DNA of 25,824 nt from IMG/VR virus record IMGVR_UViG_3300032282_002475, positions 1 through 25,824 of that record. One strand, written 5' to 3'. This DNA is from a virus. The translations under genes were made by a program, and so were the position numbers. Below, in pieces: positions 6,001 to 22,195 of the stretch; position 1 is the first letter of the stretch, and every line of letters begins with the position of its first letter. Under the pieces are notes generated by a model. The model did no database searches and was not told the origin of the DNA. It was given only the letters and a program-made list of their open reading frames with translations.

Positions 6001-6751
6001 GACGGCAGGAACCTACTTCCTGATGATGAACATGCAGCGGTCGGTGGACATCCCGACCTGGCTCGGCGCGTACCAGAAGGCGCTCGACGCCGGGAAGGAC
6101 GATGGCAAGGCCGTGGCGCTCGCCGACCAGGCGGTGCGAGACTCGCAGGGCAGCGGCCTCGTCTCGGACCTCGCGGCCGTGGAGCGCGGCGGGCCTGCCA
6201 TGAAGCTGTTCACGGTGTTCTACTCGTACATGAACACCGTCTACAACATGACCGCCGTGCAGACGATGACGGCCCGCGGCAAGGGCAAGTTGGCCGCCGA
6301 CTACGCCATGCTGCTGGTGGTTCCGGTGGTGCTCGGCTACGCCATCAAGAGCGCCATCCAGCCCGACGCCGGCGATGACGAGCTCGACCCAGAGGCAATC
6401 GCCCGTAAGCTTGCTGCCGAGGAACTGTCGTACCTGATGAGCACGATGGTCATCGTCCGCGAGTTTGGTGGTGCATCGCAGCTCTTGACGGGCGCAGAGG
6501 GTGCCCGCATTGGCTACGGTGGCCCCGCCGGCCTCCGGGCCGTTGGCGAGGTCTACGGGCTCGCCACGCAGGCTGGACAACTTGAGTTCGATAGAGCCTT
6601 CCGCAAGGCAGCCATCAACACACTCGGTGCGTTCAGCGGACTCCCGAGCGCACAGATCAACCGCACCATCGACGGCATCGAGGCGTTGGTGGAAGGCGAG
6701 GTCAGAGGACCTACCGCCGTGCTCGCGCCGCTGACTGGCGTGCAGCGTTAG
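2..6751 (+). CDS. Giant polyvalent virion protein (partial at 5' end) with zincin-like motif
   Basis: The frame is open to the left edge, so the true start lies outside the window; the first internal ATG is at base 23 and residue numbers here count from it (2242 residues). Residues about 225-400 contain LLGATSPNTPVRGNWDFAL and a later NFSGN...TIDVWAARML stretch, resembling a helical domain seen in phage polyvalent proteins (DUF7178-like, from memory). Residues 966-970 are HELIH, an HExxH zinc-protease motif, preceded by FDPRTLTVLVG, the usual context of the zincin-like region in these proteins. Residues about 1900-2120 resemble C-terminal large polyvalent protein domains, with a hydrophobic stretch near 2093-2113. 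Long charged helices fill the middle. Such proteins are usually packaged in podovirus capsids and ejected with DNA; that role is inferred. Codons 50-930 are visibly lower in GC than the rest. The overall class is fairly certain; individual domain names are not. Confidence 0.85.
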   Translation, partial: AAVERGDMEAAQRMVDEASGQPGQEAVTSDEQGNIVPLSRRFDITSPKLFEQAAVQRGEPATLERLQMQAKRGVRRQARKVELSPNEEAAISTAASEFGESAEEIREAVLNHKKAHPTAQGWAPLEFVKVSVKDRKDKGKKGLGLEKLELQYRQIPYGFHRDKTGTALLPGTPEYQTAVTGIARRMVDEVRAVLRRANAGDQNALRIINQSTWYKAMREALRREFGGLGDLFADLLGATSPNTPVRGNWDFALDVLRRATRGDFDVVITKWEAWVETIERLETDLRAYVNDEMLAMEARGEKPTQASIQRKPEYVSKLTALKEARELPDDLLPRQENGKKYGFNGGNVVRAMVGLWRTVREQNTLLGTTAQAPKALNFSGNLIGFRSRATIDVWAARMLQRLAALLRIPSMAETGVAGDMLPDGSTTGQFGFGQDVFAEAAQRVRNDAELNQNPQLSQLNDDDLQALVWFIEKELWTINNWTSVAGEGGSFELEASLAGISDQEMVTQLRKTIDAGVPRKILADANRLPAAQQALINWKLDPAKAGWRQRIADLQSELAAIPATLTKKEQRERRSEISKRLDAAFQKSGLEKIEQSLADATKADTKVAQIEEARKAAQAKLISMERRVDRYTAGLSQQQSLDSQGVDYVPTDADQARLADNVRLRAYRADLGELLVAIKSMSTEGRYGSIERSIDLEVIARQGWSPAELWNVMLEEASAARQESTFLSRVLRADESIDPARHRPGLEIYFKSPIPRDKLDALIEKLNANGVDFFTVIVDARRSAEAQSGAMADAVGIRMQYVPEFMQRYGIEDFSGLSEEELASKVKSKEAEWLLLADQILRVMPEVSFAGVFWHETRVAFADAYEREIDAITTGTATGDGGQLAGTEWAGQSVSEGLAAANRFVESRAVQAEPDGRGQVPGGVQEGNRGEFAQPSVRTVFEQAAPGPARGGFDPRTLTVLVGKGGDVSTLVHELIHLRIGEYLRMARSATPPARVIDDLDILFNFMGVKGDTFQERLDNYETMQLEQRKPLEEKVTYNAEIYVYEGKAPSVELRGVFERLSAWMRRAYKSIRDDLNAIYRREFGTDLPILTPEVRAVFDRMLASEEQIKRQQAIEGMKGLFQTQAESGMDDAEWAAYQAMQQEATEAAVTDMNTASMRQVQWLGNARARILRDLQNKHDAKRKEVTAEVAAAVKVEPVYRAMTYLRYGRFVDADGAEVDVEGTHRLDIEKVQAMYANLPSAESVALIRATGMGVPANVRPDITPLGTGKYGMLGSGGLNPDVVAETFGYSSGDEMVRALLAAKPMKDAVAERTDAEMLRRYGDMNTPAALEAEVQKALHNEARARFVAVELRHIAKATQPVRVILETAKQVAADMISDTTIRDLRPGEFVAAEARAARDAERIQRTYGITEPAPELAQRYGTDRQQALIRAKRAQLYQNQLAAEALRVKEYVDKQVKYLRGVMRDSNVKRIGAAAADQIAGILERFEVAPVSLKRLDERRSMAKYLADLEAAGVVPDIADEIADEARRVNYKQLKVSEFRDLVDAVKQIEHIGKNEQKMRLAEERAEFVEVRDDIVARILAVGKVRGLKVDPRTPLTGIGRSAAFLRGFAAQHLKAASVARVLDGGKEDGPLWNAIIRTANDASDMETRMRAEASLKLGEILKPVFALGNMGGKGMFFPSIGRSLNREARIAIALNLGNDGNRQRLLDGEGWTLEQLQPVLESLTEAEWQAVQQVWDFIDGYRPEIAAKERRLYGKEPTWVTPVPFTVRTSDGKEVALQGGYYPVKYDPVASDRVATVDAADDAKRDLQGAYTAATTRRSFVKARAKEVRDRPILYTLDAAFSGVNDVIHDLAWHEWLISTNRLLRDPKFANAVRETRGPEFLKQLRDWTKDNATGARGQQVAGESVLSWLRQGISASGLGFNVVSAAMQVTGFNQSIVRVGAKYIGQGIVQFSTSPFESAKTVAEKSSFMAERGRTQFREINEIKNRVRGQTEVARRVTAGTYFLMMNMQRSVDIPTWLGAYQKALDAGKDDGKAVALADQAVRDSQGSGLVSDLAAVERGGPAMKLFTVFYSYMNTVYNMTAVQTMTARGKGKLAADYAMLLVVPVVLGYAIKSAIQPDAGDDELDPEAIARKLAAEELSYLMSTMVIVREFGGASQLLTGAEGARIGYGGPAGLRAVGEVYGLATQAGQLEFDRAFRKAAINTLGAFSGLPSAQINRTIDGIEALVEGEVRGPTAVLAPLTGVQR
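149..162 (+). repeat. Left copy of 14-bp FEQAA-coding repeat flanking low-GC module
   Basis: TTTGAGCAGGCAGC encodes FEQAA at residues 43-47 of the giant protein. It matches the copy at 2822-2835 in 13 of 14 bases, in the same reading frame. The two copies bracket the low-GC part of the gene. Confidence 0.5.
2822..2835 (+). repeat. Right copy of 14-bp FEQAA-coding repeat flanking low-GC module
   Basis: TTTGAGCAGGCCGC encodes FEQAA at residues 934-938, just before the FDPRTLTV segment that leads into the HELIH zincin motif. It pairs with the copy at 149-162, and base composition changes sharply to GC-rich codons here. Confidence 0.5.
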
Positions 6752-19915: not shown

Positions 19916-20392
19916 ATGGCGACGAATTACCCGTGGTTCCCGTTCTACGCGGCTGACTGGACGCTGTCCGTGGTCGGGATGAATGCCACTCAGCGCGGGA
20001 TCTACATCTCACTCCTCGCCTACCAGTGGGCGAATGGCTATGCGCCCGCAATGCGCGAGCAATGCGCCCGCATAGCGGGCGCACACCCGATGCAGGACGA
20101 AGATTGGGATGCGGTGCGCGTCAAGTTTGCCGTCGAGGGCGACCGAATGCGGAACCTTCGGCTCGAAGAATGCAGGGGTGTGTGTAAGTCACGCTCCGAC
20201 AACGCGAAGCGAGCGGCGGCCGCTTCATGGGAGAAGCGAGCGCATAGCGACCGCAATGCGACCGCAATGCAGTCGCAAAGCGACGGCAATGCTAGTCAGA
20301 GTCATAGTCATAGTCACATATCTCAATCCCCCCCTCCCCCCCCTTCGCGGAAGGGGGGGAAGAGGAGAGGTGCTGATTCACTTCCGTTCTAG
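19916..20392 (+). CDS. DUF1376 replication-like protein with SSB-tip-like C-terminus
   Basis: 158 residues. ATG 19916 starts at the family's conserved beginning, NYPWFPFYAADWTLSVVGMN, followed by ATQRGIYISLLAYQWANGYA: a clear DUF1376 domain over residues 1-90, found in phage and prophage replication-initiation-type proteins. Residues 100-145 are low-complexity (SQSHSHSHISQS, then PPPPP and basic residues), and the end is GADSLPF, like the acidic-PF tip of SSB. The coding DNA contains an 11-bp iteron array at 20236-20290. By analogy with lambda O, it may be an origin-binding initiator; that is inference. No wing or HTH is seen outside the domain. An AGGAG site leads into the next gene. Confidence 0.75.
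   Translation: MATNYPWFPFYAADWTLSVVGMNATQRGIYISLLAYQWANGYAPAMREQCARIAGAHPMQDEDWDAVRVKFAVEGDRMRNLRLEECRGVCKSRSDNAKRAAAASWEKRAHSDRNATAMQSQSDGNASQSHSHSHISQSPPPPPSRKGGKRRGADSLPF
20063..20083. repeat. 9-bp perfect hairpin inside the DUF1376 gene
   Basis: TGCGCCCGC (20063-20071), loop ATA, GCGGGCGCA (20075-20083). A further copy of ATGCGCCCGCA lies at about 20040-20050. It could form a stem in DNA or RNA within the initiator gene. Confidence 0.6.
20236..20290. repeat. Five in-register 11-bp iterons (candidate replication origin)
   Basis: Units at 20236, 20247, 20258, 20269 and 20280, each 11 bases. Units 2 and 3 are identical (GCGACCGCAAT); unit 5 differs at one base, unit 1 at three, unit 4 at four. 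Because 11 is not a multiple of 3, the protein reading does not repeat, so selection appears to act on the DNA. A lower-GC stretch with AGTCAT repeats follows (20291-20325), as AT-rich DNA follows iterons in lambda ori. Confidence 0.6.
20337..20359. repeat. C/G homopolymer hairpin inside the DUF1376 gene
   Basis: C7 (20337-20343) plus TTC pairs with GAA plus G7 (20353-20359) around GCG, a 10-bp perfect stem. C7 at 20328-20334, T, then C8 at 20336-20343 precede the loop. These runs encode PPPPP and the following basic residues. No T run follows, so it is not a typical terminator; it is a slippage-prone tract before the DSLPF tail. Confidence 0.65.
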
Positions 20393-20403
20393 GAGAACCA
20401 TCC

Positions 20404-20865
20404 ATGCCTGACCACGAAGCGTTCCTTGAAACCAAGAAGCTCATGCACCGCCTCTGGCCGAAGTGGAAGGCGGATGAGGAACTCGCGGCCCTGCTGAACG
20501 GGCGGTGGGTTCATCTCGACCAGGACAAGCTCCGGGAATGCATCCGCTCCCACCGATTCGAGCGCAACACCGTGCCAGACGTGACGGCCATTCACAAGGC
20601 GTACTGCCGGATCACTGGCGCAAACTATTCCGAGGTGCAGTCGCCGAAACCACGCCTGTACACGGTCGAGACAGGGCCGAACGAACAGGAGATCGCTGAC
20701 TGGCAGTCATGGGCCGACGATCTGCTGGAAACGGCGACGGCGACGGAACTGGCAAACTGCCGCGAACGGCTCGGACTGCTGTCGTTGCACACCGACACAC
20801 CATCCCGCCGGCGGCTGGCCGCAGTCGCAATCGAGTACTGTCGCAAGAATCCACAGATGCCGTGA
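20404..20865 (+). CDS. Replication-neighbour protein, helicase-loader-like position
   Basis: 153 residues; AGGAG lies 8-12 bases before the ATG. Helical protein: FLETKKLMHRLWPKWKADEE, NGRWVHLDQDKLRECIRSHR, then VTAIHKAYCRITG and a long C-terminal part with LETATATELANCRERLGLLS. No nucleotide-binding motif is seen. Its place directly after the DUF1376 gene, like lambda P after O, suggests a replication partner or helicase recruiter, but the family is not recognised. Starts 11 bases after the DUF1376 stop, so the two are co-expressed. Confidence 0.65.
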   Translation: MPDHEAFLETKKLMHRLWPKWKADEELAALLNGRWVHLDQDKLRECIRSHRFERNTVPDVTAIHKAYCRITGANYSEVQSPKPRLYTVETGPNEQEIADWQSWADDLLETATATELANCRERLGLLSLHTDTPSRRRLAAVAIEYCRKNPQMP

Positions 20866-21571: not shown

Positions 21572-21822
21572 CCAGACTCGCGGCCTACGGCGAGAACGGC
21601 CGCCGCGTCGGTGAAACACATCACAATGCCACGATCCCCGAGGCCATCGTCCAAGAAATCCGGGAGCTCCACGAAGAACACCGATGGGGCTATCGTCGTA
21701 TCGCCAAAGCCCTCGGACTCCGCTGGACCACTGTCAGCAAGATTTGTCGATATCAGCGCCGTGCCTCTCTCCCAGCCGACTGGAAACGCCCCCGTCAAGC
21801 GAAAGGTCGGCCGGCCGCCTGA
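21568..21822 (+). CDS. HTH DNA-binding protein, 84 residues
   Basis: GTG 21568 overlaps the previous TGA (GTGA). Residues about 24-60: IPEAIVQEIRELHEEHRWGY, then RRIAKALGLRWTTVSKICRY, a helix-turn-helix of the resolvase/HTH-7 kind. The start is preceded by basic residues of the earlier gene. Such proteins occur just before terminase genes and may be regulators or packaging-related DNA binders; the role is unproven. Its end overlaps the start of terS. Confidence 0.6.
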   Translation: MTRLAAYGENGRRVGETHHNATIPEAIVQEIRELHEEHRWGYRRIAKALGLRWTTVSKICRYQRRASLPADWKRPRQAKGRPAA

Positions 21823-22195
21823 ACCAGTGCCAGAGCACCACGCCGCCGATCTCATCGCGTGGCTCTCCAACGGAAAGCCACTCCGAGAATGGTGCCGGCA
21901 GGATGGAAGGCCGCATTTCACTGCGGTTTACGATTGGATGGATAAGGACGAAGAATTCGCTCTACGCATCGCACGCGCACGCGAGGACGGCCACGACGTA
22001 ATCGCTGACCAATGCGTGACCCTCGCCGACACCCAGCCCGTTGACCAGGTCGAGGTGGCATGGCGCAGGCTTCAGGTTGAGACACGCCTAAAGCTCCTCG
22101 CCAAGTGGAACCCCAAGAAATACGGCGACAGGCAGCAGCTTGAGCATGGCGGCGGGGTCATCCTGAACGTCATCACGGGCGTCCCCGATGCGTAA
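21761..22195 (+). CDS. terS: Terminase small subunit
   Basis: 144 residues from GTG 21761, chosen because an upstream extension to GTG 21611 or ATG 21626 would overlap the HTH gene with Ser/Pro-rich, shadow-like sequence. Residues: VKRKVGRPPEPVPEHHAADL, an HTH-like helix pair (GKPLREWCRQDG, HFTAVYDWMDKDEEFALRIA), a helix REDGHDVIADQCVTLADT, then TRLKLLAKWNPKKYGDRQQL, the ending typical of Sf6 gp1-type small terminases. It binds phage DNA and recruits TerL for packaging. It overlaps terL by eight bases. The start is less certain than the identity; there is no strong ribosome site. Confidence 0.75.
   Translation: MPLSQPTGNAPVKRKVGRPPEPVPEHHAADLIAWLSNGKPLREWCRQDGRPHFTAVYDWMDKDEEFALRIARAREDGHDVIADQCVTLADTQPVDQVEVAWRRLQVETRLKLLAKWNPKKYGDRQQLEHGGGVILNVITGVPDA

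Follow-up and report, generated by a model that had tools for sequence, protein, structure and literature searches.

Contiguous 11-bp iterons inside a phage DUF1376 gene: a probable replication origin and a candidate origin-binding domain

In phage lambda, the iterons of the replication origin sit in the middle of the initiator gene O, between the part encoding the N-terminal domain and the rest, with an AT-rich tract and a helicase-loader gene adjoining (PMC7466680). At oriL of phage SPP1, the origin-binding protein G38P acts together with the helicase loader G39P and the helicase (PMC5615212). A third system is the Rac prophage, which has been reported to carry an active origin, oriJ (PMC3945230), and whose YdaU protein has been tied to replication by a proteomic study: deletion of YdaU sensitises Escherichia coli to a replication inhibitor, and the protein is linked to DnaT, DnaA and DnaE (PMC2672614). 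YdaU of E. coli K-12 belongs to the DUF1376 family, and its gene shares its layout with the gene described here. The latter lies in a 25,824-nt (25.8-kb) virus record, IMGVR_UViG_3300032282_002475, which we analysed whole and refer to as the window. A first-pass annotation of the window had pointed to a short repeat array within the DUF1376 gene as a candidate origin. Our analysis supports this proposal, and we consider it very probable that the array provides the iterons of a phage replication origin placed inside the gene of its own initiator. The features discussed below are collected in the table.

Table. Features of the DUF1376 locus and its surroundings (window coordinates)
Feature	Position	Strand	Remarks
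DUF1376 gene, 158 aa, candidate origin-binding initiator	19916..20392	+	Pfam domain at residues 6-85
Second group of the same 11-mer, incomplete, within the DNA coding for the domain	20040..20083	+	Found by TRF; two 10/11 matches; function doubtful
Five contiguous 11-bp iterons, consensus ATGCGACCGCA	20236..20290	+	In consensus phase, units begin at 20234
AGTCAT simple-repeat tract, candidate unwinding tract	20293..20316	+	TRF period 6; 40% GC across 20291-20325
Paired C-tracts with hairpin, C7-T-C8-TTCGCGGAA-G7	20326..20359	+	Edge of the exchanged module
Downstream gene, conserved, 153 aa; may encode a partner or helicase loader	20404..20865	+	39 relatives
Sf6-like terminase small subunit gene	21611-22195		1.3 kb downstream of the array

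The array is composed of five 11-bp units in register (GCGAGCGCATA GCGACCGCAAT GCGACCGCAAT GCAGTCGCAAA GCGACGGCAAT), two of which are identical while the remaining three differ by 3, 4 and 1 bases. Tandem Repeats Finder (TRF), run on the window, returned the same array at 20234-20289 with a period of 11 and 5.1 copies. At lag 11 the array matches itself at 32 of 44 positions, which makes it, jointly with the adjacent 6-bp tract, the best five-unit array in the whole window when all periods from 5 to 30 are considered; the best lag match in 60 Markov-simulated windows was 27. When synonymous codons were redrawn with the protein held fixed, the array was reproduced in about 1 in 20,000 redraws (P = 5e-5), and shuffling the order of the codons reached its level in none of 20,000 trials. 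Only three matches of at least 10/11 to the consensus exist on either strand of the window, all of them within the DUF1376 gene. The 11-bp array is thus confirmed as a real feature at the DNA level, produced neither by chance nor by codon effects. The first-pass annotation had described five in-register units with 1-4 changes and taken the DNA repeat to be the selected feature; position and change counts agree with ours, and the synonymous-codon null, together with the lack of silent changes in the array among the nearest relatives, bears out the second point. It had also noted a less GC-rich AGTCAT stretch behind the array, and this too was recovered, as a TRF tract within a region of 40% GC, compared with 62% for the array.

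This tract is short, and simple tracts comparable to it come after the iterons in many relatives. It is followed by the C-tract hairpin, with a predicted DNA folding energy of -13.8 kcal/mol (z -2). Pairs of C-tracts, defined as C5 or longer, a short gap and again C5 or longer, are present in 9 of 104 DUF1376 linkers, compared with about 0.003 per 300 nt in control ORFs. They are found on the coding strand just 3' of the repeats, often with a matching G-tract hairpin; besides the window, examples are L234 (about 6631-6655), L021, L096, L097, L489 and L466. The repeats in the O gene of Gifsy-2 are likewise trailed by a C-tract hairpin, in a weaker form. The second group of the 11-mer, within the domain-coding part, was considered as part of the origin; it carries silent changes in one close relative (L002), and we therefore do not count it as constrained.

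With regard to the protein, the Pfam family PF07120 matches at E 5e-8 with 33.7 bits, above the curated cut-off of 30.1, and a PHROG search relates the protein to "primosomal proteins". Its AlphaFold2 model (pLDDT 90; H24-40/H47-54/H61-68/E72-74/E77-79/H81-128) predicts a winged-helix-like fold for DUF1376, with three helices and a two-strand wing leading into a long helix. Structural alignments with VIA-align gave mostly winged-helix DNA binders, including ORC2, the DnaD N-terminal domain and plasmid Rep domains, at Z 4-6, values that may reflect only a common arrangement. A Foldseek search of the PDB with the model had no match at E<0.001, and a sequence search of solved structures gave no believable relative; matches in a library of viral structures were DUF1376 and Lin1244-like proteins and one "replication protein". 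DUF1376 is the sole domain found in both the window protein and YdaU, with no Phage_rep_O N-terminal domain (PF04492) in either, and the window protein has no Pfam match to Rep_3, the domain of iteron-plasmid initiators. An O-like C-terminal half of the kind that recruits P or DnaC is absent as well, the 158-residue chain stopping soon after the hairpin-coding part. As a side observation, the proteins of the window, L002, L007, L012, L015, L016, L020 and L021 all terminate in -PF (tails DSLPF, DPNWIPF, DPNWSPF, DPNWVPF and ERLPF), an ending shared by 34 of 5,636 control ORFs. We take this tail to resemble the tip of bacterial SSB, and it could serve as a docking tail for the host replisome.

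Twenty viral loci carry the gene. In the close relatives, the order of iterons, AGTCAT-type repeats and C-tract hairpin is the same, and the core 11-mer is kept in the array of all but the most distant one, L021, whose units are 12 bp; some units elsewhere are stretched to 12 bp as well. In L002-L005 the iterons are unchanged, while the remaining gene or domain has 12-14 silent changes. Between the window and L002, L003 and L005, iterons plus tract show 0 changes in 99 nt as against 14-15 changes in the 310 nt that encode the domain, made up of 12-13 silent codons and one replacement; in this comparison, identity in the next gene is 81%. The peptide encoded by the array differs between groups of close relatives even though the 11-bp register is kept, and L007 and L019, nearly identical otherwise, differ in one array block that alters the peptide and leaves the repeat units in place. 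The first-pass annotation had proposed asking whether units are kept in relatives while codons change, and these comparisons answer in its favour.

For a family-wide view, DUF1376 genes from viral contigs, bacterial genomes and annotated phages were grouped into 104 clusters at 70% domain identity, and DNA self-similarity over the synonymous null was measured by lag in the 70 codons 3' of the domain. Lag 11 forms the peak (mean Z 1.34 for 101 non-redundant genes), with harmonics at 22/23 and raised values at 6, 7 and 12 as well; at the same lag, the value is 0.47 for domain DNA and about 0.1 for the remaining ORFs of these loci. Among 39 genes less than 50% identical to each other, the combined Fisher p at lag 11 is 1.3e-15. 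Individually, 17 of these 39 are significant (p<0.05), and in some genes the spacing is 12 bp or irregular. The 11-bp form is thus common without being universal. Lambda O, put through the same procedure as a positive control, peaks at 20, 23 and 24, its annotated iteron spacings. An analysis of whole genes from only 22 clusters had been weak, and it was the restriction to the post-domain region and the larger number of genes that gave the signal. The repeats themselves can be unrelated in sequence, as illustrated by the 11-bp arrays CGCCAACATCT (L085), TTCAACGGACG (Sinorhizobium phage phiLM21) and TTACGAACGCA (L202), and 12-bp arrays double as 4-residue peptide repeats. Tandem repeats inside the coding sequence and 3' of the N-terminal domain, first met in the window gene, occupy the same place in its relatives, a layout shared by cultured phages of Paracoccus, Flavobacterium, Rhizobium and Sinorhizobium. 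Taken together, these results show that the DUF1376 family has kept the repeats as a feature of the DNA itself.

A search with the next gene retrieved phages in which a different DUF1376 domain occupies the same position. Here, the next gene is 96-98% identical and the segment from the C-tract to the stop codon 96-100%, while domain, iterons and tract are all different, the swapped module having 12-bp iterons, AATGGCCACCCC. In one pair (L002 and L497), identity falls from 87% in the 5' flank to 49% in the domain and 47% in iterons plus tract, then rises to 99% from C-tract to stop and 98% in the next gene; in another (L015 and L504), the corresponding values are 68%, 46%, 48%, 97% and 98%. A further phage (L528) has yet another repeat type, 12-bp CGGTGACCGTGA, with the C-tract hairpin layout unchanged. 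In two lineages, DUF1376 domain and repeats have therefore been exchanged between phages as one unit. A protein and the sites it binds would be expected to be replaced jointly in this way.

The E. coli relatives connect the family to known initiators. In ydaU, which spans 1,421,119-1,421,976, irregular 11-13 bp repeats are followed by a 6-bp tract, a C-tract hairpin and then the DnaC-like gene ydaV, and the C-terminal half of YdaU shares homology with the corresponding half of Gifsy O proteins, including Gifsy-2 O. In two E. coli prophages (L532, 1116-2640; L533, 1167-2631), a DUF1376 domain with repeats of the K-12 type is fused to a DnaT domain (PF17948), and a truncated-looking lambda P-like gene (PF06992) comes next. 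Conversely, the Rac prophage of E. coli 442/2 (L478, 1228-2016) has a third type of N-terminal domain, phrog_2509, with its own GTTAC-containing repeats joined to the YdaU C-terminal half. Since the latter keeps the C-terminal half and the two fusions keep the K-12 domain with its repeats, the N-terminal part together with the repeats, and the C-terminal part together with the loader, behave as two exchangeable modules. DNA similar to ydaU is present in 854 of 5,426 complete E. coli genomes. No oriJ annotation exists in the Rac stretches we examined, which makes the placement of oriJ in ydaU a prediction.

In the window, the product of the conserved downstream gene had no Pfam or PHROG match and, in a Foldseek search of the PDB, nothing at E<0.001 and no recognisable loader fold. 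Loci that have this gene and lack a DUF1376 gene are L507-L526 (except L508, L523 and L528) and L530; L507, L511 and L526 are examples of phages in which no DUF1376 gene stands just upstream of the homologue. Elsewhere in the family, several neighbours of DUF1376 genes encode DnaB, DnaC, primase or DnaA-like proteins. Besides the terminase small subunit, the window encodes a terminase large subunit and a head-tail connector (portal-type) protein. Two contigs together (L029 and L030, G013) make up a relative of 36,276 bp whose terminal repeat measures 123 bp, and so probably a complete genome. Cumulative GC skew, which the first-pass annotation had suggested consulting, does not support an origin at the array: in the window and five longer contigs, one of which has a 123-bp end repeat and is probably complete, the minimum lies elsewhere, and the gene is near a local maximum. 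For phage genomes of small size, GC skew gives weak guidance.

As the best explanation of these patterns, we propose that DUF1376 is an origin-binding initiator domain. The winged-helix-like domain would bind the 11-bp iterons, and because these abut at about one helical turn, the protomers may be aligned on one face of the DNA. By analogy with oriLambda, the assembled complex would then open the adjacent lower-GC simple-repeat tract. Finally, the C-terminal part or, in the window, a partner, for instance the product of the next gene, would recruit the replicative helicase, a step supported in the E. coli relatives by the O-like or DnaT C-terminal halves beside DnaC- or P-type loader genes.

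Could the repeats serve another purpose? A DUF1376 regulator might use them as operators, repressing or autoregulating an early operon from inside its own gene with no replication start involved. The predicted fold would suit such a role, CRP and Fur being among the structural matches, and co-exchange of domain and repeats is compatible with any protein-site pair. However, the array lies deep in the coding region, away from a promoter, and is followed by a simple-repeat tract; several neighbours are helicase, loader or primase genes; and the fusions with O-like and DnaT C-terminal halves and the replication-linked phenotype of YdaU (PMC2672614) speak against this reading as well. We regard operators as improbable.

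Less likely still is a low-complexity linker shaped by replication slippage or peptide selection, with no role for the DNA. The linkers are indeed polar and of low complexity (e.g., SQSHSHSHIS), turnover of units can be seen between L007 and L019, and the 12-bp arrays are peptide repeats too. Yet 11 is not divisible by 3, the signal stands above the synonymous null both in the window and family-wide, other ORFs of the same loci lack it, and the array is free of silent changes, by which this explanation is already largely refuted. The faintest prospect is a packaging (pac) site for the nearby terminase. In phages with Sf6-like terminases, pac sites lie near the small subunit gene, as the array does here, but the same arrays exist with no annotated terminase nearby, e.g., in E. 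coli Rac and Rhizobium phage RHph_N28_2, and when the DUF1376 domain is exchanged, they go with it.

Returning to the origin, the recurrence of the layout in many DUF1376 genes suggests that this family of unknown function probably starts DNA replication. Earlier hints in the same direction are the PHROG label "primosomal protein", the GenBank label "replication protein O" and the YdaU study (PMC2672614). In the literature searched, neither a link between DUF1376 and "origin of replication" nor an origin inside a DUF1376 gene was described; the first-pass annotation, too, knew of none of the latter. With somewhat better than even confidence, we extend the proposal as follows: DUF1376 would be an origin-binding domain that is widespread in phages and prophages but has so far gone unrecognised, and together with its 11-12 bp iterons it would form a plug-in module that is swapped whole between initiators which otherwise keep their C-terminal half and loader (O-like with DnaC, DnaT with P, or none). 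The C-tract hairpin would be both a shared origin element and the exchange point, and oriJ of K-12 would lie inside ydaU. If true, a common domain of unknown function would gain a function, the origins of many phages and prophages could be predicted straight from sequence, and oriJ, an E. coli K-12 origin known for decades, would obtain a testable site. The exchange pattern would further imply that phages switch origin specificity in one recombination step while the helicase-loading machinery is kept.

Among the systems compared, the Rac prophage pair ydaU-ydaV resembles the window in having repeats in a DUF1376 gene, a 6-bp tract and a C-tract hairpin, with a DnaC-like gene next in Rac. SPP1 G38P belongs to another protein family, and the likeness is at the level of the protein's role. 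The V. cholerae chromosomal initiator RctB has 11- and 12-mer iterons at ori2, likewise short direct iterons near one helical turn; it is, however, of a different family, and its sites lie outside its gene. To lambda O and oriLambda, the likeness is that of iterons within the initiator gene, 3' of the N-terminal domain, and the analogy drawn by the first-pass annotation is stronger than it claimed, since E. coli DUF1376 proteins have O-like or DnaT C-terminal halves adjoining DnaC- or P-type loader genes. The differences are equally clear: Phage_rep_O (PF04492) in lambda as opposed to the unrelated DUF1376, 18-bp iterons spaced 20-24 bp as opposed to contiguous units of 11-12 bp, and a window protein devoid of an O-like C-terminal half. 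The contiguous 11-bp geometry also departs from that of classical plasmid iterons. In kind, then, this is the lambda arrangement; new in detail are the unrelated DNA-binding domain and the contiguous 11-12 bp iterons.
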